Shown here piece after piece: positions 17,705 through 47,249 of a stretch of 64,000 bases of DNA. Numbering within the stretch: position 1 is the first letter of the stretch; every line of letters begins with the position of its first letter. Made by a program: the position numbers and the translations under genes. The DNA is from Allomuricauda sp. CP2A. Lineage in GTDB: Bacteria > Bacteroidota > Bacteroidia > Flavobacteriales > Flavobacteriaceae. Below the pieces are notes generated by a model that was not told where the DNA came from, did not search any database, and worked only from the letters and a program-made list of their open reading frames with translations. The stretch covers positions 1-64,000 of the forward strand of contig NZ_LXTT01000100.1 of NCBI RefSeq assembly GCF_001683915.1, read 5' to 3'.

Positions 17705-19792
17705 ATGAAGCGAACCCCATTTCTTGTTTTTTTTCTTCTCATGCAGTTGCTTTCCGCCCAGGTTCAGGATAAGGTAGACTTTACCCATGCCGAGGTTTTT
17801 GTCGAACCAATTCCAGAGGAAAAGAAAATAAATGGGTCGGTCACCTATCGGTTTGATGTGCTCAAAGATGTGGATTCTATCTTTTTGGATGCCCATGATA
17901 TTGATTTCTCTTCTGTTCTATTGGATAAGAAAAGTGTACCCTTTACGAGTACTGGAAGTACAATCTCCATTTCAGAAAAATTTAAAAAGGGAGACACCCA
18001 TTCCATAGAACTGCGATATACAGCCCACCCTAAGCAAACAGTTTACTTTTTGGGATGGGATGATGACACGAAAGGTGATGAGCAAATCTGGACCCAAGGC
18101 CAAGGCAAATACACCAGCCATTGGTTGCCCAGTTTTGATGATATGAACGAAAAAGTAGAGTTTGATATCAGCATAAAGACAAAAAAGAACCTCACCGTTT
18201 TTGCCAACGGAAAGCTCTTGGACAAAAAGGAGTATGTAAACAATGGGATTACTTGGCGCTACGACATGAAAGAACCCATGAGCAGTTACCTTGTAGCTTT
18301 TGCCATTGGTAATTTTGAAAAGGAGACCATGCTGTCAAGTTCTGGGGTGCCCATTGAGCTCTATTACGAACCCAAAGACAGTCTAAAAGTTGAACCCACG
18401 TATCGATACACCCAACATATTTTTGATTTTTTGGAAAAGGAGATAGGTGTTCAGTATCCCTGGCAGAACTATAAGCAAATTCCCGTACAGGATTTTTTGT
18501 ATGCCGGAATGGAAAATACCGGAGCCACCATTTTTTCCAACACCCTTGTGGTGGATTCCATTGCATTTAAGGATAAAAATTATGTCAATGTCAATGCGCA
18601 CGAGTTGGCCCACCAGTGGTTTGGGGATTTGGTCACGGAGCAGAGTGGGGAACACCATTGGTTGCACGAAGGGTTTGCCACATTCTATGCCTATTTGGCC
18701 GAAAAAGATATTTTCGGGGACGAATACTACTACTGGCACCTGTTGGAAACGGCACAGGCACTGGCCAACTTTTCAGGGGAGGGCAATGGAGAAGCCTTGA
18801 CCAATTCCAGTGCAGGAAGCCTTACTTTTTATGAGAAAGGAGCTTGGGCCTTGGTAATGCTGAAAGAAAGGGTGGGGGATGCCAATTTTAAGCAGGGCAT
18901 CAAGAATTATCTGAATACGTATGCCTATCAAAATGTCACTATTCCCGATTTTATGTGGGAAATGGAAAAAGCCTCGGGAGTGAAACTTTCAGATTTTGAA
19001 TCGGTTTGGCTGCAAGAATCGGAATTCCCTTTTGAGGAGGTGAAACGTTTCTTGATGGAGAAAAGTCCTTCCGTCAAAAGCTATTTTGAGTTACAAAACC
19101 AGATTGGGGGAGATTTGGAATCCGCAGAGACAATTTTACAAGAAAAGTGGGCCACTTTAAATTCCGAACAGTTGAAACACCATTTGGTTTTGGATTATGG
19201 AAGTAAGTTCTCCACCTCCACCATTTCCAAAATGTTGAAAACGGAAAATCTGAAAGTGCGGCAAGCACTGGCCTTGTCCACGGAAAAAATTCCCCAAGAA
19301 ATCCAGTTGGATTTTGAGACCCTTTTGGAGGATGAAAGTTATGTTACTTTGGAATCTGCTCTATATAAGCTCTGGACTGATTTTCCAGAGAGCAGACAGC
19401 AATATCTGGACGAAACAGATGGGATCATGGGATTTTCCAATAAAAATATCCGATTACTTTGGTTGACCTTGGCCTTGGTGACACCGGAATATAATGCAGA
19501 ATTAAAGCCCAGCTATTTTGAAGAACTCAGCAATTATACCAGCTCGGAATTCCATTTTGAGGTGCGGTTGCTGGCATTTCAATATCTAAAAAGTATCGGG
19601 GGTTTCAACGATGCATCATTGCGGAATTTAGTCGAGGCCTGCAGCCACCATGTTTGGCATTTTAAAAAATCATCGCGGAAAATTTTAAAGGAATTTTTAA
19701 AGAGCGAGGGCAGCATGGCACGATTAAAGGCCCTTTATCCTTTGTTAAACCAAGAAGAACAGCAATATTTGGACAAAACTTTGGGTAAATGA
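17705..19792 (+). CDS. Secreted M1-family metallopeptidase (aminopeptidase)
   Basis: This 695-residue zinc aminopeptidase has a signal peptide (MKRTPFLVFFLLMQLLSAQ). An N-terminal beta domain is followed by the substrate-binding GMENTGATIF motif. The catalytic HELAHQWFGD starts at residue 299, with the third zinc ligand in WLHEGFATF twenty residues later. A C-terminal helical domain completes an M1 layout shorter than E. coli PepN. It is probably periplasmic or surface-located and trims peptides. Its TGA stop overlaps the ATG of the patatin gene (ATGA), so the two are translationally coupled. A 46-base divergent gap separates it from recG. Confidence 0.93.
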   Translation: MKRTPFLVFFLLMQLLSAQVQDKVDFTHAEVFVEPIPEEKKINGSVTYRFDVLKDVDSIFLDAHDIDFSSVLLDKKSVPFTSTGSTISISEKFKKGDTHSIELRYTAHPKQTVYFLGWDDDTKGDEQIWTQGQGKYTSHWLPSFDDMNEKVEFDISIKTKKNLTVFANGKLLDKKEYVNNGITWRYDMKEPMSSYLVAFAIGNFEKETMLSSSGVPIELYYEPKDSLKVEPTYRYTQHIFDFLEKEIGVQYPWQNYKQIPVQDFLYAGMENTGATIFSNTLVVDSIAFKDKNYVNVNAHELAHQWFGDLVTEQSGEHHWLHEGFATFYAYLAEKDIFGDEYYYWHLLETAQALANFSGEGNGEALTNSSAGSLTFYEKGAWALVMLKERVGDANFKQGIKNYLNTYAYQNVTIPDFMWEMEKASGVKLSDFESVWLQESEFPFEEVKRFLMEKSPSVKSYFELQNQIGGDLESAETILQEKWATLNSEQLKHHLVLDYGSKFSTSTISKMLKTENLKVRQALALSTEKIPQEIQLDFETLLEDESYVTLESALYKLWTDFPESRQQYLDETDGIMGFSNKNIRLLWLTLALVTPEYNAELKPSYFEELSNYTSSEFHFEVRLLAFQYLKSIGGFNDASLRNLVEACSHHVWHFKKSSRKILKEFLKSEGSMARLKALYPLLNQEEQQYLDKTLGK

Positions 19793-34018: not shown

Positions 34019-34465
34019 TTAACGGCTAAAATCAGGAATATCCTTCAAAAACGTATATTTTTCATTCTCATGGTCCATTTGGCAATAGTAATGCTCCAAG
34101 CCATTGGTCACCATTAAATAATTGGATTGCAGTTGGTAATTGTAGCGGGCAATCTGATCAAAAGTCGATTGATCTATTTTTACCTCAGGCGCTTTGCATT
34201 CCACCAAAAGAAAAATAGTGCCATCCGGATTGAAAATCACGATATCATATCTTTTCTTCATTCGGTTCACCATCAATTGCTTTTCCACATTGATCAGGCT
34301 CTTCGGGTAATTTCTTGTGAAGACCAGAAAATGCAACACATGCTGGCGCACCCACTCCTCGGGTTGCAACAAAACAAATTTTTTGCGGATGCCATCAAAA
34401 ATGTAGCGTCTATTTTGGCTATTTTTGATTCGGAACGAATACGAGGGAAAGTTCAAAGGTTGCAT
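34019..34465 (-). CDS. Stand-alone HsdR N-terminal-like nuclease domain protein
   Basis: This 148-residue protein starts at 34465 (MQPLNFPSYSFRIKNSQNRR). It resembles the N-terminal nuclease domain of type I restriction subunit HsdR, with a PD-(D/E)XK-type site in YDIVIFNPDGTIFLLVECKAPEV (D about 89, E-C-K about 102). No helicase domain, HsdM or HsdS is nearby. Its fixed place divergent from holA with only 28 bases between suggests a housekeeping rather than a restriction role, but that is inference. Confidence 0.75.
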   Translation of the reverse strand: MQPLNFPSYSFRIKNSQNRRYIFDGIRKKFVLLQPEEWVRQHVLHFLVFTRNYPKSLINVEKQLMVNRMKKRYDIVIFNPDGTIFLLVECKAPEVKIDQSTFDQIARYNYQLQSNYLMVTNGLEHYYCQMDHENEKYTFLKDIPDFSR

Positions 34466-34493
34466 TGGACAAAATTGATGAATTTTTTTGGGA

Positions 34494-35495
34494 ATGGACA
34501 AGGTAAAGGAAATAGTTGCGGAAATTGATGCGGGAAAACCGAAGCCCATATATTTTTTAATGGGAGAGGAACCATATTATATTGATAAAATATCAAAATA
34601 TATTGCAGATAATGTGCTCACTGAAGATGAAAAAGGATTTAACCAGATGGTCCTTTATGGTCGTGACACGGCTGTGGATGAAGTGATCGCAAACGCCAAA
34701 CGGTTTCCCATGATGGCCGAACACCAAGTAATCATTGTGAAGGAGGCTCAAGACCTATCCCGAACCATTGAGAACTTGACGGCTTATGTTGAGCACCCGC
34801 AGCCCACAACGGTGTTGGTGATCTGCTATAAGTACAAGAAACTGGACAAGCGTAAAAAGCTGTACAAAGCAGTTCAGAAGAATGGAGAGCTTTTTGAAAG
34901 TAAGAAACTCTACGAAAATCAGGTGGCTGAATGGATACGAAGGACACTGGGCAGCAAAAACTATAAGATTTCCCCCAAAGCCTGTATGTTGCTTGTGGAA
35001 TTTTTGGGAACCGATTTGGGAAAAATCAACAATGAACTTACCAAACTGACCTTGGTGGTGCCTTCTTCCACTGAAATTACTCCAGAGTTGATTGAGCAGC
35101 ATATTGGCATCAGCAAGGATTTCAACAATTTTGAGTTGAAAAAAGCGATTGGGGAAAGAAATGTGGGCAAGGCTTCACGAATCATCGATTATTTTGCCCA
35201 AAATCCCAAGGATAACCCTTTTGTGGTGACAGTGACATTGTTGAATACCTTCTTTACACAATTATTGCAATACCATGGGTTAAAGGACCATTCTCCGGGG
35301 AATGTGGCGAAAGTTTTGGGAGTCAACCCTTATTTTGTAAAGGAATACACGGTTGCCGCCAGAAACTATCCCATGAAGCGAGTGAGCGGGATCATTTCAA
35401 GTTTACGGGAGTTGGATTTGAAAAGTAAAGGGGTTGGGGCCAACAATCTGGCCCAGTCAGAACTGCTCAAAGAATTGCTCACCGAAATAATCTAG
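34494..35495 (+). CDS. holA: DNA polymerase III subunit delta
   Basis: This 333-residue clamp-loader subunit opens the sliding clamp. It has the family N-terminus KPKPIYFLMGEEPYYIDKISKYI, the DLSRTIENLTAYVEHPQPTTVLVI region, FLGTDLGKINNELTKL and a C-terminal helical collar. ATG at 34494 is preferred over the TTG two codons earlier. It converges with the DoxX gene with two bases between. Confidence 0.92.
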   Translation: MDKVKEIVAEIDAGKPKPIYFLMGEEPYYIDKISKYIADNVLTEDEKGFNQMVLYGRDTAVDEVIANAKRFPMMAEHQVIIVKEAQDLSRTIENLTAYVEHPQPTTVLVICYKYKKLDKRKKLYKAVQKNGELFESKKLYENQVAEWIRRTLGSKNYKISPKACMLLVEFLGTDLGKINNELTKLTLVVPSSTEITPELIEQHIGISKDFNNFELKKAIGERNVGKASRIIDYFAQNPKDNPFVVTVTLLNTFFTQLLQYHGLKDHSPGNVAKVLGVNPYFVKEYTVAARNYPMKRVSGIISSLRELDLKSKGVGANNLAQSELLKELLTEII

Positions 35496-35979: not shown

Positions 35980-38391
35980 TTACCTAAGTGCAGGATAGGA
36001 ATTTGGGTCGGCCTCATGCATGATTTCGTACACTTTTTCAAAAATATCCTCGGCATTGGGTTTGGAAAAATAATCCCCATCTGAAGAATAGGCAGGCCTG
36101 TGTGCTTTTGCGGTAAGGGTTTGCGGGGCACTGTCCAGGTAACGGTACCCTTTTTGGTTCTCAAGGATTTCCTGTAATAGGTACGCAGAACAACCTCCAG
36201 GAACATCTTCGTCCACGATCAAGAGTCTATTGGTCTTCTTTAGGCTTTTTACCACATCATGATTCAAATCAAAAGGTAAAAGGGACTGCGTATCAATAAC
36301 CTCGGCATCAATACCTACTTCCAAAAGATCTTTGGCGACTTTTTCAACAATCCTGAGGGTGGACCCATAGGAAAGAATGGTAATGTCTGTACCCTCTTTT
36401 AGGGTTTCTACCTTCCCAATAGGCGTGCAGAACTCTCCAAGATTGGTGGGTTTTTTCTCTTTGAGACGATATCCATTGAGACTTTCAATAACTAAAGCCG
36501 GTTCGTCACTTTTCATCAACGTATTGTAAAAACCAGCCGCTTGTGTCATATTTCTGGGGACCAAGATGTACATGCCCCTCAGTAGACTTATCAGCCCAGC
36601 CATGGGGGACCCGGAATGCCAAATACCTTCCAAGCGATGGCCCCTTGTACGAACAATAAGGGGAGCTTTTTGCTTGCCAACGGTCCGGTACATGAGGGAG
36701 GCCAAATCGTCACTCAAGGTTTGAATGGTATAGAGGATATAATCCAAATATTGGATTTCCGCAATGGGACGCAGACCTCTTAGCGCAAGTCCAATGCCTT
36801 GCCCAATGATCGTGGTTTCCCTAATCCCCGTATCGGCGACACGCAGCTCACCGTATTTTTTCTGTAGCCCTTCCAGGCCTTGGTTTACGTCGCCAATATT
36901 CCCTGTATCCTCTCCAAAAATCAAAGTCTCGGGATATTTGGAGAAAAGTGCATCAAAATTATCTCGGAGAATAATCCGACCATCCACTTCTTCCAGACCT
37001 TCTGTGTACGAAGGGGCAACCGTTGCAACTTTTGTGGCCCTGGAGGGCAGTTCGCTGTACAAGTGCGAACTGTATTTGGGTTGTGTAGTAGCCAAGAAAT
37101 TATCGATCCATTGTTGAAGCTGCTTTTTTTCTGGGGTGGACTCACCCAAAAGATAACGCAGTGCACTTCTGGATTTGGAGGCCAAATCCTTTTTTAAGGG
37201 CTCCTCAAGTGCAATAAGATCATTTTTGATTTTTGTAATGAACGAGCGATTGGGACTTTGGCTCGCAACACTATCCAAAAGTTGTACGAGCTGCTTTTTT
37301 GCTTGAAGATGGGGTTTTAAGAACTCGGTCCAAGCTTCCTTTTTGGCAGAACGTACTTTATGCTTGATCTCGCGCTCCAATTTTTTTAGCTCCTCCTCGG
37401 TACTGATGCCGTTTTCAAGAATCCATTCCCTGAACCGTTTGTTGCAATCGTTTTCCCGTTCCCATTCCAAACGCTCGGGCGATTTATATCGTTCGTGGGA
37501 ACCAGAGGTTGAATGTCCTTGTGGTTGGGTGAGTTCGGTAACGTGGATCAGTACGGGGACATGGTTTTCCCGGGCAATGTCGGAAGCATTTTCAAACGCA
37601 TGGATGAGGCCTGTATAATCCCATCCATTGATGGTTAAAATCTCAAAGCCTTCTTTATCATCATCACGCTGAAATCCTTTTAAGGCTTCTGAAATATTCC
37701 CTTTGGTGGTATGAAATTTGGAAGGTACCGAAATCCCATAATCATCATCCCAAATGCAAATGACCATGGGAACTTGCATCACGCCAGCGGCGTTGAGGGC
37801 CTCAAAAAAGTGACCTTCGCTGGTGCTGGCATTCCCAATGGTGCCCCAGGCCACTTCATTTCCATTATTGGAGAAGTTGGTCTGATCTATACCCTCTACG
37901 TTCCTATATATTTTTGAAGCTTGGGCCAACCCTACCAGTCGTGGCATTTGTCCGGCGGTACAGGAAATATCGGCACTACTGTTCTTCTGTTGGGTAAGGT
38001 CTTTCCAAGAACCATCCTCATTTAAACTGTGGGTTACAAAATGACCTCCCATCTGCCTTCCGGCACTCATGGGTTCCTTTTCCAAATCGGTGGTGGCGTA
38101 CAGGCCGTGGAAGAACTCCTTGGGATTAAGATAACCGAGGGCCATCATAAAGGTTTGATCGCGGTAGTAGCCACTTCTGAAATCCCCATCTTGGAAAGCT
38201 CTGGCCATGGCCAACTGCGGAAGCTCCTTTCCATCTCCAAAAATCCCAAACTTGGCTTTTCCCGAGAGAACCTCACGTCTTCCCATCACACTACATTCCC
38301 GGCTAGTGATCGCAGTCTCATAATCCTGAAGAATCTGCGATTGAAAATCTGCAAAGGAAATATCGTTGCTTGTACTCGGGTCAGGTTTCAT
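35980..38391 (-). CDS. 2-oxoacid dehydrogenase E1, fused alpha and beta subunits
   Basis: This 803-residue TPP enzyme is the first component of a 2-oxoacid dehydrogenase complex, probably acting on branched-chain 2-oxoacids. The alpha half (about residues 20-370) has the TPP loop from GTIGNASTSEGHFFEAL to DDDYGISVP. The beta half (about 460-803) has LIFGEDTGNIGDVNQGL, VADTGIRETTIIGQGIGLAL and VDEDVPGGCSAYLLQEI. The fusion is typical of Bacteroidota. No E2 or E3 gene is in the window, so the partner complex is encoded elsewhere. Pyruvate as substrate is less likely but not excluded. Confidence 0.9.
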   Translation of the reverse strand: MKPDPSTSNDISFADFQSQILQDYETAITSRECSVMGRREVLSGKAKFGIFGDGKELPQLAMARAFQDGDFRSGYYRDQTFMMALGYLNPKEFFHGLYATTDLEKEPMSAGRQMGGHFVTHSLNEDGSWKDLTQQKNSSADISCTAGQMPRLVGLAQASKIYRNVEGIDQTNFSNNGNEVAWGTIGNASTSEGHFFEALNAAGVMQVPMVICIWDDDYGISVPSKFHTTKGNISEALKGFQRDDDKEGFEILTINGWDYTGLIHAFENASDIARENHVPVLIHVTELTQPQGHSTSGSHERYKSPERLEWERENDCNKRFREWILENGISTEEELKKLEREIKHKVRSAKKEAWTEFLKPHLQAKKQLVQLLDSVASQSPNRSFITKIKNDLIALEEPLKKDLASKSRSALRYLLGESTPEKKQLQQWIDNFLATTQPKYSSHLYSELPSRATKVATVAPSYTEGLEEVDGRIILRDNFDALFSKYPETLIFGEDTGNIGDVNQGLEGLQKKYGELRVADTGIRETTIIGQGIGLALRGLRPIAEIQYLDYILYTIQTLSDDLASLMYRTVGKQKAPLIVRTRGHRLEGIWHSGSPMAGLISLLRGMYILVPRNMTQAAGFYNTLMKSDEPALVIESLNGYRLKEKKPTNLGEFCTPIGKVETLKEGTDITILSYGSTLRIVEKVAKDLLEVGIDAEVIDTQSLLPFDLNHDVVKSLKKTNRLLIVDEDVPGGCSAYLLQEILENQKGYRYLDSAPQTLTAKAHRPAYSSDGDYFSKPNAEDIFEKVYEIMHEADPNSYPALR

Positions 38392-38553: not shown

Positions 38554-41382
38554 TTAGAGCCATTTTCGAGTAAACAAGCCTACAAGCGTTTTAGGGCTCA
38601 GGGTAACCACAAAGCGTATGTGCTGTGCGTAGTTGTCTTGGGCAATTTCCCATCCATTGTTGGAATAAACAGGGAAATAAAGTTCAAAATAGTCGGTTAC
38701 CAAATTCAAACGAATTCCGGAATCATACACAAAGCGGGTATCCGCTCCTTTGCTTTTCATAAATCCTAGATCGCCATAGGCTTCCACCCATCTCCAGATA
38801 TTGGTGCTGGCATTGGTGGTGACAATCCAGTCATTGGCGAATGGATTTTCCAGTTTGGATTTGAATCCTCCTTCGGCAATGATGATTTGCTGGCTGTAAA
38901 TCCCGGAACTTTCCGATCGTCCCAAATAGGCCAAATCAAACATATAATCCGTAGGCCTATCCAACGCAAAACTGAAAAAATCCGATTCGGTTTTGTTCCG
39001 CAGGAACTTTCCGGCAAAAAACCTGAAATTCAACTGTCGGTTGCTTTGAAACAACTTTCTGTATTCCATTTCAAAGACAAGTTTGGTAAAATCACTGGAG
39101 TGTTGGGCATCCAAAAACCAGGAACGGTAGTTTAAAATGTTGTTGTCCACATCAGTAAAGCGCACATTCATCACCCCATAATCAGGGTCCGTGTCTATTT
39201 CGTCTGCGATATTTGTATCGATGCTCCTAAATACATTTCTGTAGCGAAAAAGAAGTGCTTGTCTTCGATTGGACAGCAAATCATTGGGCCTCCAACCAAA
39301 ACTAACGGCCGGGGTAAGGGTTGAAAAGCGGGAATTTACCTGAAAATGGGAGGTAGACCCGGAAATGGAGTAGTTGGACACATACAGCCCCGTTTTATTA
39401 TGGTATTTTCTATAACTGAAGCTTGCCTTTCCTACCATGGTACGTTCCAAAAAGGAATACGTGGGTGAAATATCATATTGGAACGGCCTTTCCAAAAAGG
39501 TCTTGTTATAGAGTCGCATGCCGGGAGTGATCCCATCGTAAATGTTGAAATTGGCAATGGGCACATAAAAAACCTGATTGTAATAGGGGTCTTCCGTATC
39601 CTTGAAAAACTGAAATTTCAACTTTTTGTTACTTGAGAAGAAACCATTAAGGGTCTTCCAGTTGTTACGTTGGTTGAACTCAGGAATTTTTTGGTCATAA
39701 TTGAGCACCATCCGGTCTTCGCCATTCCTGGGAACGGTCACTGTTTTGGAGGTGTCAATATTGGTAAACCAGTACTGTGAGACCACCGAATCATTCTGAA
39801 GACCAAAGAGTGAAATGGGGACATTGGTGCCCCGCTTATTTTTTATGGTCAAGGAAATGGAATCCTCGGTTTTCTCTATCTTATTGATTGTGAAATCAAT
39901 TTTCTTGTCCGTGGCCACATATTCTTCAAAAAACCAATGGATGTCCTTATTTGAAAACCGTTCAATGGTTTTTCTAAAGTCCAAAGCAGTCACCTTTGGC
40001 TTTAGACGAAAGTTTTTATAAAAAGCCGTAATGCTACTATCTATCTTTTTCTCCCCGAGATATTCTGAGAGATAGGACATGCCAAGACCTGCCTTATAGC
40101 CATTGGCGATCTTTTCGTTGAACTTTATCAGGGAATCGTTACGGGTGTTCAGGGCTTGGTCGATATTCTTACGGGCCGGCAACATGCTCAACAAAGTGTA
40201 TTGTTCATTAAATTCCATCTGCGCCAAGTGGAACCCTTTAATGCCCCAAATCTTGGAAAGTTTTCCGGCCAACTTCTGATCAGGATAATGGTCCTCCACA
40301 AATTTGATCATAAGATAATACCCAATGGCATCGTTCACCCAGCGTTCTGTTCGGGGGTTCAGGAATAGGGTTTCCTGCAAATAACTGCGAATGGCAGTTT
40401 TTAAGAACTTCATCTCAAACTGGAACTGCTCTTCATAGGGGCGTATAAATGAAGGCAGCTGGTTTACGCCGTACAAGGGAGACCGGCTATAATCAAATTC
40501 ACTGACCAATAAATTTTCGTGGGGGTATTCACCCAAATTTTCCTGTAAAAAATGGACAATTTTACTGACGGAGATGCCCTGATAGATTTCATCGTACTTG
40601 TTGGAGTCCAAATCAGTGGTCACCGTCACGTTTTCAATGCGGTGTTTGGTGAACCTATCTATGGTGGATAGAATGATCTCGCAACTTTTTCTATCTGTTC
40701 CGCTGAGCTGAATGAATTGCCCGCCAGGAAATTTACTTGCACTGGATCCATTAAAATTGGTTGCCAGGTGCAATCGCTCTGGATAGGTAAGGTTTATAGT
40801 GGTTTCTGTAACGCCCGTGTACAGGTCGTCCAAATTCATATTGTCGTAGAGCTTCCATTCACCATTGTATACAGCAGGAGTGAGATACCAGTTTTTTAGA
40901 TTGTACCCAAAGCCCGGCGTATAACCATAGGACGTAAATTTTGTATCGGGCAATTGTACGTGATATGTAAAGAACAATTGAATGGAGTCGTTGGGCTGAA
41001 GTACCTCATTCAAGGTGACTGAAATAATGTCCCGATTGCCCAAACGCTCCCAATCCAATCCTACATAATCTTCCGCTACTACGGTCCTAATATCAGTAAA
41101 ACCCCGTTCCCGTTCCTTGGCCAAATGTAGGCTACGGTTGAATTCTTCCGCGAAGCGTTTGGCCAATGCCGTATTCTTGTTGGAATAGGCATGGTTCCAG
41201 TCGTTAAAGTACAATACCGAAAGCCCTTCACTGGATTGGTTTACATAGGTGATCTTCTGTGTGATTTTAATTTCCCTGTCATCCAATTCTGCCGTCAGCT
41301 CATTTTTGTGTTGTCCCCACGATGAGGCACAAAACATGAACAATAGCAATGATATTCCAAATGAGGTGTGGGGGATGTTCAA
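38554..41382 (-). CDS. M1-like pseudopeptidase fused to an outer-membrane beta-barrel
   Basis: This 942-residue protein has a signal peptide (MNIPHTSFGISLLLFMFCASSWGQ). Residues about 25-520 follow an M1 aminopeptidase layout, but the zinc site is gone. Where the active M1 enzyme at 17705 has HELAH, this protein has KTAIR (about residues 328-332). Where that enzyme has WLHEGF, this one has WVNDAI (W348). No HExxH occurs anywhere. From about residue 640 to the end, alternating beta strands and aromatic residues suggest an outer-membrane barrel. It is the last gene after uvrA and the LOG gene, with ten bases between. A surface binding or transport role is inferred. Confidence 0.75.
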   Translation of the reverse strand: MNIPHTSFGISLLLFMFCASSWGQHKNELTAELDDREIKITQKITYVNQSSEGLSVLYFNDWNHAYSNKNTALAKRFAEEFNRSLHLAKERERGFTDIRTVVAEDYVGLDWERLGNRDIISVTLNEVLQPNDSIQLFFTYHVQLPDTKFTSYGYTPGFGYNLKNWYLTPAVYNGEWKLYDNMNLDDLYTGVTETTINLTYPERLHLATNFNGSSASKFPGGQFIQLSGTDRKSCEIILSTIDRFTKHRIENVTVTTDLDSNKYDEIYQGISVSKIVHFLQENLGEYPHENLLVSEFDYSRSPLYGVNQLPSFIRPYEEQFQFEMKFLKTAIRSYLQETLFLNPRTERWVNDAIGYYLMIKFVEDHYPDQKLAGKLSKIWGIKGFHLAQMEFNEQYTLLSMLPARKNIDQALNTRNDSLIKFNEKIANGYKAGLGMSYLSEYLGEKKIDSSITAFYKNFRLKPKVTALDFRKTIERFSNKDIHWFFEEYVATDKKIDFTINKIEKTEDSISLTIKNKRGTNVPISLFGLQNDSVVSQYWFTNIDTSKTVTVPRNGEDRMVLNYDQKIPEFNQRNNWKTLNGFFSSNKKLKFQFFKDTEDPYYNQVFYVPIANFNIYDGITPGMRLYNKTFLERPFQYDISPTYSFLERTMVGKASFSYRKYHNKTGLYVSNYSISGSTSHFQVNSRFSTLTPAVSFGWRPNDLLSNRRQALLFRYRNVFRSIDTNIADEIDTDPDYGVMNVRFTDVDNNILNYRSWFLDAQHSSDFTKLVFEMEYRKLFQSNRQLNFRFFAGKFLRNKTESDFFSFALDRPTDYMFDLAYLGRSESSGIYSQQIIIAEGGFKSKLENPFANDWIVTTNASTNIWRWVEAYGDLGFMKSKGADTRFVYDSGIRLNLVTDYFELYFPVYSNNGWEIAQDNYAQHIRFVVTLSPKTLVGLFTRKWL

Positions 41383-41392
41383 TGGGCTAGAT

Positions 41393-42085
41393 TTAGAAAT
41401 TTGGACTTAGGTCACGTTCTTTGTAGAAAGAATCCAAGATTTCCACGACCTCATCTTCTGTGTCCACCAATTTGATCAGATCCAAGTCCCTGGGGCTAAT
41501 GTTGCCAGCTTCCAACAGGGTAGTTTTAATCCAATCCATAAGGCCTTTCCAAAACGTGGAGCCCACCAAAATAATGGGAAATGTATGTATTTTATGGGTT
41601 TGGATAAGGGTAAGGGCTTCAAAAAACTCGTCCAATGTGCCAAAGCCCCCTGGCATAACCACAAATCCTTGGGAGTACTTTACAAACATGACTTTTCGAA
41701 CAAAGAAATAATCAAAATCCAAGCTTTTATCTTCATCTATAAAAGGATTGTCGTGCTGTTCAAACGGTAGGTCAATGTTCAGTCCCACCGAAGTTCCCCC
41801 AGCCAAATGGGCCCCTTTGTTTCCGGCTTCCATAATTCCTGGACCACCTCCGGTAATGATTCCATAACCGGCCTCGGCCACTTTTTGGGCCACTTTAACG
41901 GATAGGTCGTAGTAATGTTCCCCTTCCTTTACCCTGGCCGAACCAAATATGGAAACACATGGGCCAATGGCACTCATTTTTTCAAATCCGTAGACAAATT
42001 CACCCATAATCTTGAATATGGCCCATGAATCGTTTGTCTTTATCTCATTCCACCCTTTGGTGTGCTGTTCTTTTCGCATTTGCAT
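41393..42085 (-). CDS. LOG-family Rossmann-fold protein
   Basis: The protein is about 230 residues in the TIGR00730/LOG family, which includes cytokinin riboside 5'-monophosphate phosphoribohydrolases and general nucleotide 5'-monophosphate nucleosidases. The two signature motifs are GIITGGGPGIMEAGNKGA and MPGGFGTLDEFFEALTLIQ. The start at 42085 (or 42079) gives the family N-terminus; the longer frame overlaps uvrA. It lies 13 bases after uvrA. True substrate unknown. Confidence 0.9.
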   Translation of the reverse strand: MQMRKEQHTKGWNEIKTNDSWAIFKIMGEFVYGFEKMSAIGPCVSIFGSARVKEGEHYYDLSVKVAQKVAEAGYGIITGGGPGIMEAGNKGAHLAGGTSVGLNIDLPFEQHDNPFIDEDKSLDFDYFFVRKVMFVKYSQGFVVMPGGFGTLDEFFEALTLIQTHKIHTFPIILVGSTFWKGLMDWIKTTLLEAGNISPRDLDLIKLVDTEDEVVEILDSFYKERDLSPNF

Positions 42086-42098
42086 AATTGTATATAAT

Positions 42099-44960
42099 TT
42101 AAACGGCCCTAGCGATGCTTTGTTTGGAATTCTCAAGTTCCTTCCTCAAAAACTTTGCCGTGTAGCTTTTTTTGTCCTTTGAAACTTCTTCGGGCGTACC
42201 TTTTGCAACGACCATTCCGCCCCCGCGCCCCCCTTCGTAACCTATATCGATGATATGATCCATCATTTTGATCACATCCATGTTGTGTTCTATGACCAAA
42301 ATGGTGTTTCCTTTATCCACAAGTTGGTTCAACACTTCCATGAGCACACGGATATCTTCAAAATGCAATCCGGTTGTAGGTTCGTCGAGGATGTAAAACG
42401 TGTTTCCGGTATCGCGCTTGGAAAGCTCTGTGGCCAACTTTACCCGTTGCGCTTCACCACCGGAGAGGGTAGTGGACTGTTGCCCCAAAGATATATAACC
42501 CAATCCTACATCTTTTATTGTCTTTAACTTACGGTGTATTTTGGGGATGTTTTCAAAAAAGTCAGCGGCCTCATTGATGGTCATATCCAATACATCGGCA
42601 ATGGATTTTCCTTTATACCGGATTTCCAAGGTCTCCCTATTGAAACGTTTGCCGTTGCAGGTTTCACATTCCACATACACATCGGGCAAGAAGTTCATTT
42701 CAATCACTTTTAACCCACCTCCCTGACAGGTTTCACATCGACCTCCGGCCACATTAAAACTGAAACGCCCCGGTTTGTACCCTCGGATGGCAGCTTCGGT
42801 GGTCTTGGCGAACAAAGCCCTAATTTCACTGAAAACACCTGTGTAGGTAGCCGGGTTGGAGCGCGGTGTACGCCCGATGGGGGATTGGTTGATGTCGATG
42901 ACCTTATCAATATGTTGCAGCCCAGTAATTTTTTTATAGGGCATTGGCTTTTTTACGCCATTAAAATAATGCGCGTTCATGATAGGGTAGAGGGTCTCAT
43001 TGACCAAGGTGGATTTTCCACTGCCTGAAACTCCTGTGACCCCTATCAATTTCCCCAGGGGGAATTCAGCGGTAACATTTTTAAGGTTGTTTCCTGTACA
43101 GCCCGAAAGCACGATTTTTTTCCCCGTTCCTTTTCGGCGCTCCGCAGGTACCGGAATTTCCAATTCACCCGTAATGTATTGGGCGGTGAGCGTATGATGG
43201 TTCTTCAACTCTTCAGGTGTTCCTTCGGAAATAATTTCCCCGCCATGCTTTCCAGCTCTGGGGCCGATATCAATAACATGGTCAGCACTTTCAATCATAT
43301 CCCGGTCATGCTCCACCACAATGACAGAATTTCCAATATCCCGAAGGGATTCCAAGGAATGAATCAAACGTGCATTGTCCCTTTGGTGAAGACCAATGCT
43401 GGGTTCATCCAAAATATAGAGCACCCCCACTAATTGTGACCCAATCTGTGTGGCCAAACGGATACGCTGTGCCTCACCACCGGATAGCGACTTGGAACTT
43501 CGGTTCAAGGAGAGGTAGTCCAAGCCCACGTCCAACAAAAATTGAACACGGGTTCTGATTTCCTTGATAATTTCCTCAGCAATTATTTTTTGGTTACCCT
43601 CCAGGGAATTTTCTAATTGTTCGAAAAACTCGGCCAGCTCGGCAATGTCCATATGGGCCAGTTCTGCGATATTCTTTTCGCCGATTTTAAAGTAAAGCGA
43701 TTCCTTGCGCAATCTAGCCCCTTCGCAATTGGGACACTTTACCTTGTCCATGTAATCCTTGGCCCAACGCTTGATGGAACTGGAGTTGGCCTCTTCAAAC
43801 TGGGTCTTGATGAAATTGGAAATGCCCTCGTAATCAATTTTATACTGTCGTTTTACGCCCAATGTTTTGGAATCGACCTCAAAACTTTCCTTCCCACCAT
43901 TTAAAATCACCTCCATGGCCTCCGCTGGGATTTTTTCAATGGCGTCCGATAAATCAAACCCATATCGTTGGGCAATGGTTTCCAATTGCTTGAAAGCCCA
44001 CGACTTTTTGTATTCGCCCAGTGGTGCCAATCCACCTGCTTTGATGGAGAGTTTTTTATTCGGGATGATTTTGTGTTCGTTCACTTCGTGAACATGGCCC
44101 AATCCATTGCACTCGGGGCACATGCCCTTGGGTGAGTTGAACGAAAAGGTGTTGGGCTCGGGAGTGGGGTAGGAGATGCCCGTTGAGGGGCACATCAAAT
44201 CCCTGCTGAAATATCGGGGCACACTTTCACCTTCCTCCAGAACCATCAGCACATTATTGCCGCTGTACATGGCGGTATTGATGGTCTCACTGAGGCGTTT
44301 GTGAAAATCTTCGCTATCACTGACCTTCAATCGATCAATAACAATCTCGATATCGTGGGTTTTGTACCGGTCCACCTTCATGCCCTTGGTGATGTCGGTA
44401 ATCTCACCATCGACCCTCACCTTTACAAAACCTTGCTTTGCAATCTGTTCAAACAATTCACGATAATGTCCTTTTCTGGATTTGACCACGGGAGCCAAAA
44501 CGTTTATTTTTTTATCCAAATAGGAGTCTATGATCAAATTCTTGATCTGTTCATCGCTATAGCTTACCATTTTCTCACCCGTGTTGTAGCTGTAGGCGTC
44601 CCCTGCACGGGCAAAGAGTAAACGCAAAAAATCGTATACCTCGGTAATGGTGCCAACAGTAGATCGCGGCGATTTTGAGGTGGTTTTTTGTTCTATGGCG
44701 ATAACGGGGGAAAGCCCATCGATTTTATCCACATCCGGGCGTTCCAGTCCGCCCAAAAATTGCCGGGCGTAGGCGGAGAAAGTTTCTATATACCGACGCT
44801 GGCCTTCGGCATAAATGGTGTCGAAAGCCAAAGAGGATTTACCACTGCCCGAAAGTCCGGTGATCACTACGAGCTTTTCGCGGGGAATGGTAACGTCTAT
44901 ATTCTTGAGGTTATGGACCCTTGCCCCCCTAACCTCAATATGTTCTTCGTAATTGATCAT
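42099..44960 (-). CDS. uvrA: Excinuclease ABC subunit A
   Basis: This 953-residue damage sensor of nucleotide excision repair is a tandem ABC ATPase. Both Walker A motifs are visible ([16 protein letters not shown] and [16 protein letters not shown]), as are both signatures ([17 protein letters not shown] and [16 protein letters not shown]). Zinc modules are seen in [21 protein letters not shown] and the pair CETCQGGG / CETCNGKR. The start at 44960 ([18 protein letters not shown]) is the family start; the longer frame upstream includes a dispersed repeat. No binding site like the S24-type operators at 48.8 kb was seen in its upstream region. Confidence 0.97.
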
Positions 44961-45675: not shown

Positions 45676-46410
45676 TTAATCGAGTAAATCAATTACCTCA
45701 TTTTTCTTGTATAAATTAGGCAAAAATCTAGATTTAATTCTAAACTGACTTCTCTTTTTAATCTTGGGCTTGGTTGACAAATTTTCTAATTTAATTCCTG
45801 GGTCATAATAAATATTTCCACTAGCCATCTGTCCAAGAAAAAGTTGAAAGTCAGTCCCAGTGCCCAAAATCACATTGTTACCATATTTATATTTCCTGTC
45901 TCCTTTTGTATTTGAAAGTGATGGAACGTAACAAGCTTTGTCGTGTTTTCTGTTCCAGTGCAGAAGCATTGATGAAAAACTCCAAGAAGCTGCTTCGTTT
46001 CCTTGTTGGTCAATTAATGAAATACTCCCATTTGAATTTCTTATTTTTCCGCTTTCTTGATCAAAACCGATTAATTTCATTTCTAGTTTGGTCGTTGGAT
46101 GTAATTCTCCCGCCTTATGTACTCCTCCAAAATTCATTCGGTCGGGGCGTCCTAATTTGTCAGGATAACCATAGGTTTTTATAAAGTACTCTGTTCCTTT
46201 AGATTTATAAAGTCCATTTGTTGGTTCAGGTGTCATTAGAGTTATTACTGATGAGTTTATGTTCTCAAACTTTTTAACGCCAAACTGCTTGATCTCCCAA
46301 CCCATAAAATCAGGTTCAGAATATCCATTAGGTGCTACACCTAGTTCGGCTTCGAGCGTATAACCTCCACAATTTGATGCTCGATAAGGTAAAATGTTTT
46401 GAGCGTTACC
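45676..46410 (-). pseudogene. MvaI/BcnI-family type II restriction endonuclease, 5'-truncated
   Basis: The open frame from 46305 encodes 209 residues matching the MvaI/BcnI endonuclease family: SSVITLMTPEP, KTYGYPDKLGRPDRMNFGG, and ...DFQLFLGQMASGNIYYDPGIKLE near the end. The frame continues 35 codons upstream without a start codon, reading NCGGYTLEAELGVAPNGYSEPDF before MGWEIKQFG. The PD...E-I-K pattern (PDFMGWEIK) is the expected nuclease site, so an ATG start at 46305 would drop the catalytic aspartate. The frame is closed by TAG at 46411-46413, inside the structured element at 46402-46486. MvaI cuts CCWGG and BcnI cuts CCSGG; the target here is inferred. Activity is unlikely. Confidence 0.75.
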
Positions 46411-46486
46411 CTAAAGGGTCGGGCTATACGTTACAAGTCCTCGCTCATTCTTCGCTGTGGGCTTTTCCACTTTTATCCCTAACGCT
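46402..46486 (-). other. Structured 85-nt element between HNH and endonuclease genes
   Basis: The ends AGCGTTA and TAACGCT are a perfect inverted repeat, and an internal CCCTTTAGGG hairpin sits near the 3' end. Read on the minus strand it begins AGCGTTAGGGAT and ends CCCGACCCTTTAGGGTAACGC. The TAG stop of the HNH gene lies inside its first bases. Similar-looking sequences occur, from memory, in other flavobacterial intergenic regions; I cannot name the family. It could be a small mobile palindromic element or a structured RNA. Confidence 0.6.
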
Positions 46487-47249
46487 GAAATCTGTTTTCA
46501 TTATGGTATTTTAAGAACTCGATATCAGGTAGAAATTTTGATGGTAAAACAATATCTTTGTTTTCATATTGAAAAAAGTATTTTTCAAGAGAATCAGTTT
46601 TTTTGCTTTTTAAAAGCACATCTGAAATTTTGATTTTGTAATCAGGTGTAATCGTGATTAGACCATTTTCAAATGCTTTATCGTGCAACGCATTAATTGC
46701 AATACCATTTCTTGGGTTTAATCTATTTTGTTCGTCTTGACTCCAAGGTTTGATATGTCCAGCAACTAATAATTGACTTTGGTTAATACCAGTTATACAA
46801 CAAGTACTATTGTATGAGGCTAAAATAGAACTCCTAAAAAATGATTGATTGACTCTAACTTTTACAACTCTTTCTCTTTCCTTTCCTTTTGGTAAACTTT
46901 TAATATCGATGTTATTTAACTCTTCGATAGATTTGTTTTCAAATTTTGATAGCAACTTTTCACTTTCAAAAGGAAGTTCTTCCCAGTTATCATAAAATTC
47001 ATCCCAAATTGCTTTATCGAGATTGCTTGAATTGGAAGCGCCTTTAATTCCTCTAGCTTGTAAACTTGGGTCAAGACTTGCAAAATTCACCAATTTATAA
47101 GCTATAGAACTTGGTGTTCTTCCAATCAATTCTGCTAAATGAATAACTTGAGGGTTTGTTCGGTGTAATCTTCCGAAAGGTAATTTACAATAAAGATTTA
47201 TTGCTAAAATTAATTCATCTCTAGTCCATAGTTTTTGCCCCTTTTTCAT
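46479..47249 (-). CDS. HNH endonuclease
   Basis: This 256-residue protein has an N-terminal helix-turn-helix-like segment (WTRDELILAINLYCKLPFGRLHRTNP...AELIGRTPSSIAYKLVNF) and a C-terminal HNH_2-type nuclease. The nuclease core runs CCITGINQSQLLVAGHIKPWSQD then NPRNGIAINALHDKAFENGLITI (about residues 150-200). It ends in the usual FLPDIEFLKYHNENRF, so it is probably complete. Its start overlaps the stop of the zinc-ribbon gene (ATGA). The DNA is AT-rich compared with neighbours: a hand count of 46861-46920 gives 16 G/C in 60, against 31 in 60 at 45421-45480. Probably part of a defence or R-M cassette. Confidence 0.85.
   Translation of the reverse strand: MKKGQKLWTRDELILAINLYCKLPFGRLHRTNPQVIHLAELIGRTPSSIAYKLVNFASLDPSLQARGIKGASNSSNLDKAIWDEFYDNWEELPFESEKLLSKFENKSIEELNNIDIKSLPKGKERERVVKVRVNQSFFRSSILASYNSTCCITGINQSQLLVAGHIKPWSQDEQNRLNPRNGIAINALHDKAFENGLITITPDYKIKISDVLLKSKKTDSLEKYFFQYENKDIVLPSKFLPDIEFLKYHNENRFQR

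Follow-up and report, generated by a model that had tools for sequence, protein, structure and literature searches.

The 64,000-nucleotide stretch of Allomuricauda sp. CP2A DNA analysed here (contig NZ_LXTT01000100.1, positions 1 to 64,000; the window) raises the question of what a peptidase fold without its catalytic residues does when joined to an outer-membrane barrel. The gene concerned is the open reading frame (ORF) at 38554-41382 on the minus strand, which encodes a protein of 942 amino acids (aa) from a TTG start codon. An earlier note, made from the sequence, had described the product as a catalytically dead M1 peptidase domain joined to an outer-membrane barrel, and this description was borne out by the M1 fold found with VIA and Foldseek, by the replaced catalytic residues, and by the modelled barrel. 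Searches of Pfam, NCBIfam, and PDB sequences with the 942-aa protein itself gave no matches; therefore, family, structure, and relatives were needed to settle the pseudopeptidase claim. The architecture, the loss of catalytic residues, the orthology of the family, and a shift of constraint between domains were established by calculation. We favour the reading, whose chances we judge to be even, that evolution remodelled an outer-membrane M1-barrel peptidase into an assembly or translocation factor of Omp85 type, without catalysis and with its M1 part in the periplasm at the place of POTRA domains.

An M1 fold without its zinc site

Structure prediction of the full protein, which the earlier note had proposed as a check, gave an M1 fold followed by a C-terminal barrel. 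The full-length AlphaFold2 model was built on 54 sequences and had a mean predicted local distance difference test (pLDDT) score of 73.7; inputs for structure prediction covered 53 of the 80 named loci (A3) or 79 of the 80 (A4, with L103, which had two motif matches, omitted). Here and below, L-numbers denote loci, G-numbers genomes, and f-numbers families, f1 being the window's own family, and all coordinates within the gene refer to the minus strand. The model contains a beta domain, a gluzincin-like domain, and an Ig-like domain in the order of M1 enzymes. The N-terminal beta domain spans residues 25-256 (40615-41310), and VIA alignments to M1 enzymes start at residues 20-25. The gluzincin-like helical domain, with its catalytic residues lost, spans residues 265-489 (39916-40590), as assigned from the model, VIA, Foldseek, and the catalytic columns. 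The Ig-like beta sandwich in the position of M1 domain III (residues 497-560; 39703-39894) was assigned from DSSP of the model, and many VIA alignments extend to residues 560-598. The M1 fold was matched at a VIA Z of 21.5 (root-mean-square deviation [rmsd] 3.4, 462 aligned) and a Foldseek E of 5e-19. PF01433 was found in 28 of 28 zinc-bearing relatives described below (cut-off E 5; best 2.5e-21) and not in the 942-aa protein itself.

An active M1 enzyme encoded in the window (17705-19792, plus strand; PF01433, E 3e-38) served as reference. Its HELAH (residue 299) and WLHEGF (residue 319) become KTAIR (residue 328) and WVNDAI (residue 348) in the 942-aa protein, exactly the replacement at equal 20-residue spacing that the earlier note had reported. 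In alignments with relatives, KTAIR (residues 328-332; 40387-40401) occupies the former HExxH site, and WVNDAI (residues 348-353; 40324-40341) occupies the motif of the former third zinc ligand, which is mostly WMDEG in zinc-bearing relatives. Likewise, GVNQLPSF (residues 305-312; 40447-40470) is a degenerate GAMEN exopeptidase motif, mostly GGMEYP in the same relatives. Thus, the HExxH-(18)-E signature of active M1 enzymes reads KTAIR and WVNDAI, GAMEN reads GVNQLP, and the position of the catalytic Tyr is G428.

The zinc site was absent from the family proteins read, the second check that had been proposed. HExxH was found nowhere in 50 family proteins, the window protein included; 1 of the 80 named relatives (L146) has it, at a place well away from the old site (position 84 of the matched stretch). 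The five catalytic columns (His, Glu, His, Glu, Tyr) were intact in 28 of 28 zinc-bearing proteins; the 43 zinc-less proteins kept the first His in 4, the base Glu in 2, the second His in 3, the third-ligand Glu in 7, and the Tyr in none, and the residues at the old site vary between zinc-less rows. One zinc-less protein of f1, L036 (G004), lacks the first His and the Tyr but retains the other three residues of the old site (Glu, second His, third-ligand Glu). A displaced zinc site is unlikely, because no His of the 942-aa protein is kept in more than 75% of 28 diverse members, and none stands among the invariant or 90% columns. Among 54 near relatives, H25, H86, H247, and H679 are each kept in more than 90%, a conservation that fails more widely.

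A barrel resembling Omp85

The last about 300 residues, which had been taken for a beta-barrel, do form one in the model, starting at residue 603, and models, Foldseek, VIA, and HHalign point to an Omp85-like barrel at residues 603-929 (38596-39576). Omp85 proteins are marked by 16 strands, a loop L6 between strands 11 and 12, a (V/I/L)RG(F/Y) motif in L6, and one or more POTRA domains. Here, 15 strands were assigned at residues 603-907, the last in a low-confidence stretch, and a weak sixteenth of 3 residues appeared in the barrel-only model (80 sequences; pLDDT 68.3). By strand order and conservation, a conserved 55-residue loop between strands 11 and 12 (residues 797-851; 38830-38994), modelled with low confidence, stands in the place of Omp85 L6; it contains PTDYMFDLAYLGRSESSG, and its conserved Arg is located in GRSE.

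Foldseek with the barrel gave 547 matches at E ≤10, of which the 50 listed were all SAM/Sam50, TamA, BAM/BamA, FhaC, CdiB, or TOC; the best E values among the matches listed were 4e-6 for SAM and 6e-6 for TamA. Among these matches, the chains from SAM, BAM, and TOC are presumably the Omp85 subunits. In VIA, the top barrel matches were a SAM chain (Z 15.4, rmsd 4.4, 262 aligned) and FhaC (Z 15.4). A profile test independent of the structure model was made with HHalign, using as references 60 Omp85 barrels from the phylum, with some near-duplicates among them, as well as 30 TonB receptors and 19 FadL-type proteins. The 28 zinc-bearing barrels matched Omp85 at 87% (E 4e-6, 284 columns), compared to 0.1% for TonB and 0.2% for FadL, and all 72 barrels together matched Omp85 at 80.9%; small Omp85 profiles, tried before the wider one, gave 0.2-47%. 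Pfam found no Omp85 domain in the 942-aa protein or the 28 zinc-bearing relatives, and no barrel family was among the 18 families found in those 28. The Omp85 assignment rests jointly on Foldseek, HHalign, strand order, and L6.

The protein begins with a signal peptide, read by eye from the sequence (residues 1-23; 41314-41382), which makes Q24 the predicted new N-terminus. Q24 is invariant in alignments of 28 and of 54 proteins and agrees with the Bacteroidetes Q-rule (PMC10653852). The called start is the TTG at 41382; with the sole nearby in-frame ATG, at residue 16, as start, the signal peptide would be far shorter. The Sec-type signal with its invariant Gln and the C-terminal Omp85-like barrel together would place the M1 module in the periplasm. 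Since the module precedes strand 1 of the barrel, where POTRA domains stand, it is probably periplasmic and beneath the barrel, not displayed by it or plugging it.

Descent of the family and shift of constraint

A single-protein search gave matches with E ≤1e-100, mostly full length, in 143 of the 149 genomes of the window's family, its own included, and a profile search extended it to further families at the level of order, class, and phylum. The closest named relatives belong to Allomuricauda, Flagellimonas, Maribacter, and other genera, which points to Flavobacteriaceae as f1. Some of the more distant relatives share this architecture and are zinc-bearing: their HExxH and DEG are intact, most have GGMEYP, and they are presumably active. 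This zinc-bearing set (n = 28; L085-L101, L191, L209-L216, L218-L219) comprises 11 proteins of the order, from families f58, f59, f64, f67, and f68, and 17 that belong to further families of the class or phylum; the zinc-less set comprises 43 proteins from f1, f2, f56, f57, f60, and f65.

In a full-length tree of 72 proteins, in which f1 was reduced for size to 19 rows, the zinc-less proteins all fell on one side of one branch (Shimodaira-Hasegawa-like approximate likelihood ratio test 100; quick method, no bootstrap), and this split also held after removal of the zinc-site columns. With the class's other families as outgroup, the one change that the full tree needs amounts to a single loss of the zinc site inside the order. 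Several independent losses are not needed by the full trees. L102, L220, and L224-L228 (without a barrel, weakly matched, broken, or filler) were kept out of the trees, and L217 was retained there and dropped from the identity and catalytic-column counts. L217 (G579, labelled f68) is a zinc-less f1-type gene in a uvrA-LOG-E1 neighbourhood, whereas the genes of the other two f68 genomes read are zinc-bearing; its contig was probably misbinned. In L224 (G183, f5), the M1-barrel gene is broken into three ORFs (383, 151, and 376 aa), from either a pseudogene or a sequencing error. G049 carries two full-length copies (contigs C19 and C11; identity with the window protein 47% and 42%), the sole such case among the matches listed.

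The two sides of this branch differ in where conservation lies. Mean pairwise identity in the catalytic domain versus the barrel was 45% versus 24% in zinc-bearing proteins and 24% versus 35% in zinc-less proteins, and of the two domains the barrel was the more alike in 874 of the 903 pairs of zinc-less proteins and in 11 of the 378 pairs of zinc-bearing ones. The 28 zinc-bearing proteins had 53 invariant columns, 44 of them in the M1 part, and 27 zinc-less proteins had 19, all at residues 608-923; this contrast is possibly inflated by alignment error in the divergent M1 part. By these comparisons, constraint is inverted, favouring the peptidase in zinc-bearing and the barrel in zinc-less proteins. 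This movement of constraint onto the barrel suggests that the barrel gained importance once catalysis was gone. The median ratio of nonsynonymous to synonymous substitution rates (dN/dS) was 0.03-0.07 over all domains, indicating purifying selection (12-15 of the 40 closest pairs, the remainder excluded for dS outside 0-1.2 or saturation). In near relatives, it was 0.03 for the catalytic domain (13 pairs) and 0.03 for the barrel (12 pairs), so the dead M1 domain is not in decay.

The surroundings of the gene bear on how the zinc site was lost. The most widely shared neighbour is a dehydrogenase E1 gene, located downstream in the window (35980-38391, minus strand; PF00676). E1 adjoins the zinc-bearing L191 (f58) and the zinc-less L194, L199 (f60), and L208 (f65). 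A PspC homologue lies directly upstream of the zinc-bearing L191 and L213-L216 (f58, f67, f68) and of the zinc-less L193-L195 (f60), and L194 has both PspC upstream and E1 downstream; L203 was excluded from the PspC count, as one of its ORFs matched both PspC and TANGO2 queries. Because E1 and PspC are shared across the zinc-bearing and zinc-less divide, replacement of the gene by a paralogue is an unlikely origin of the zinc loss. At the zinc-bearing L283, L284, L287, and L288, from other families of the class or phylum, the examined neighbours share almost nothing. Three wider loci (L286, L289, and L290) have, upstream of the M1-barrel gene, PadR, an NDH2-like gene, and a gene whose 372-393 aa product is conserved; by Pfam, L289 has PspC, LiaI-LiaF-TM, Toastrack, and PadR above cut-offs and HAAS below. 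A PadR-PspC-Toastrack-type operon or a PspC gene occurs directly upstream on both sides of the zinc divide (L286, L289, L290, L193-L195, L213-L216). HAAS-PadR-PspC-Toastrack systems without PspA have been described as envelope-stress systems, in a text where the words "peptidase" and "outer membrane" are absent (PMC11237479).

Closer to the window gene, a LOG-family gene (41393-42136, minus strand; PF03641) lies directly upstream, separated by 10 bases and perhaps co-transcribed. The order uvrA-LOG-gene-E1 is kept in all 67 near loci with at least 5 kb of flank on each side, and in 49 wider family loci E1 is downstream in 45 and LOG upstream in 39 (40 if shorter ORFs are counted). The position downstream of uvrA and LOG, to which the earlier note had drawn attention, is therefore real and kept in near relatives, and its functional information is small. 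The PadR-PspC neighbourhood is more informative, but is confined to more distant relatives. Nearby, a stand-alone 176-aa HSDR_N_2 protein (34019-34549, minus strand; PF13588, E 1e-42) is encoded by an ORF whose neighbour on the opposite strand, the DNA polymerase III delta gene, starts within the overlap of the two; a homologue is present in 60 of the 67 near loci. Near uvrA are an MvaI/BcnI-type restriction endonuclease ORF (45676-46305, minus strand; PF15515, E 4e-34, first 44 profile positions unmatched) and an HNH_2 protein (46479-47249, minus strand).

A possible role, its rivals, and known systems

If the protein is a non-catalytic assembly or translocation factor, its ancestor would have been an M1 peptidase anchored by a barrel, its zinc site still intact. 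Because some relatives follow a PadR-PspC stress operon, that ancestor may have served in envelope quality control. Loss of the zinc site, along with the general base, the exopeptidase motif, and the catalytic tyrosine, would have occurred in the line to the window's family and its neighbours among the families, and conservation would meanwhile have shifted onto the barrel. POTRA domains bind unfolded client segments; in the same manner, the former substrate cleft, or the surface of the domain, may hold such a segment uncut, and the barrel would then insert the client into the outer membrane or pass it at that membrane. Omp85 proteins, which typically carry POTRA domains, act in building and crossing outer membranes, also in mitochondria and chloroplasts. 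More tentatively, and with distinctly less confidence than the remodelling itself, we suggest that an inactivated aminopeptidase replaced POTRA as client binder in a new Omp85-type machine, a former quality-control peptidase becoming a dedicated assembly or translocation factor. The clients are perhaps surface lipoproteins or other Bacteroidota-specific proteins.

Several points weigh against remodelling into such a factor. Client binding and transport are the steps of it that we infer. No POTRA domain was found: the model has no helix of at least 4 residues at residues 490-602 (581-601 at low confidence), and Pfam gave no POTRA match. The (V/I/L)RG(F/Y) motif was likewise not found in the L6 loop. 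For these two reasons, we use the term Omp85-like and refrain from counting the barrel among canonical members. VIA alone would not decide the barrel type, because other large barrels score within 2 Z of the top matches (Fiu 14.0, ScrY 13.8, BtuB 13.5), and with HHalign the zinc-less barrels alone matched Omp85 at 13.8%, compared to 0.8% for each control. Barrel pLDDT is modest (68) and falls below 50 in L6 and in the last 48 residues, which makes strand 15 and the weak strand 16 doubtful. In the phylogeny, the barrel-only tree requires three changes, although one zinc-less clade is not rejected (approximately unbiased test p 0.16). A strong match is absent from 6 of the 149 family genomes (G016, G023, G055, G081, G089, G136; completeness 66-99%). 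Within f1 alone, the inversion of constraint is milder, with 34% identity in the catalytic domain versus 40% in the barrel, the barrel ahead in 150 of 171 pairs, and 37 invariant columns among 28 diverse members, 12 in the M1 part and 25 after residue 560. Among the zinc-less proteins, L036 keeps 3 of 5 catalytic residues and the other rows keep 2 or fewer. Finally, of the 53 loci inspected for PspC, most of them with some 1 kb of flank, 8 showed a clear linkage, and neither the 80 named loci nor the regions flanking 49 family loci yielded a PspC.

The shift of constraint also bears on the alternative that survives best, which we rate as unlikely: that the barrel serves as an anchor, and that the pseudopeptidase is the working part, which would hold a partner of regulatory or structural kind in the periplasm, with no transport or assembly involved. 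The purifying selection on the dead domain in near relatives is consistent with this arrangement, as is the retention there of the family motifs GLNQLP and W-x-D-G/A. However, a barrel kept as an anchor should drift, and that of the zinc-bearing clade does so, whereas across the zinc-less clade conservation of the barrel exceeds that of the M1 domain. Somewhat more doubtful is a role in outer-membrane lipid homeostasis, in which the Omp85 scaffold would resemble PlpD and the pseudopeptidase would regulate access to the barrel and the adjoining membrane. PlpD is itself an enzyme-Omp85 fusion with a periplasmic enzyme domain, whose deletion alters lipids (PMC11116518), and the PadR-PspC linkage of some relatives suggests membrane stress; but no widely shared lipid-related neighbour appeared among the loci examined, and the substrates of M1 enzymes are peptides.

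Improbable, in our estimate, is export of the domain through the barrel, or its display by the barrel at the cell surface as a binding device. Enzyme-Omp85 fusions were formerly interpreted in this way (PMC4104836; PMC11116518). Against this, the M1 domain here is N-terminal and comes before strand 1 of a barrel that is Omp85-like, and in the precedent, PlpD, the enzyme domain is periplasmic (PMC11116518). The earlier note's suggestion of a domain displayed by or plugging the barrel was therefore unsupported, judging from the resemblance to Omp85 proteins, whose N-terminal domains are periplasmic. That the protein is still a hydrolase, through another metal site or mechanism, is very improbable: the fold is kept under purifying selection, but no His is widely conserved in the 28 diverse members and the old-site residues differ between rows.

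Should remodelling into an assembly or translocation factor be correct, a near-universal protein of a large family would be an unrecognised part of the outer membrane, an Omp85-type barrel with a dead peptidase in the POTRA place, in a phylum where surface-protein export is poorly understood. The zinc-bearing M1-barrel proteins have the same architecture and some common neighbours, but differ in their intact HExxH and DEG and in the constraint on the peptidase; like architecture, common neighbours, and opposite constraint make the switch from enzyme to non-enzyme directly testable. Compared to M1 aminopeptidases (PSA, IRAP, ERAP1, LTA4H, and the Deinococcus radiodurans two-domain M1), the beta, gluzincin-like, and following beta domains align in order, whereas the window protein lacks the catalytic residues and is fused to a barrel.

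Among known outer-membrane systems, BamA, BamG, and TamL of Bacteroidota are likewise outer-membrane proteins, and BamA and TamL are of Omp85 type. Unlike the window protein, none of the six subunits of the Flavobacterium johnsoniae BAM complex is described as having a peptidase fold, and in the source's account of the six proteins the word "peptidase" does not occur; judged by description and not by sequence, a BAM subunit is thus rejected as an identity for the protein (PMC12611786). Enzyme-Omp85 fusions are already known, and the M1 pseudopeptidase version appears undescribed: no published description of an M1-Omp85 fusion was found among the matches listed, in a search that most subscription papers and preprints fall outside, so that novelty is unproven. 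The "Metallo" Omp85 subfamily (Heinz and Lithgow, 2014; PMC4104836) resembles the window protein in joining an Omp85 barrel to an N-terminal hydrolase-like domain, but that domain is PF00149, and the main text of this 2014 census does not contain the word "peptidase". The closest studied case that we found is PlpD of Pseudomonas aeruginosa, whose patatin domain was once thought to be secreted and was found to be periplasmic (PMC11116518). Both proteins have an enzyme-fold domain, most likely periplasmic, N-terminal to an Omp85-type barrel. PlpD has a patatin domain, a POTRA domain, and an enzyme thought to be active (PMC11116518), whereas here Pfam gave no patatin match, POTRA was not found, and a dead M1 fold stands in the patatin domain's place.

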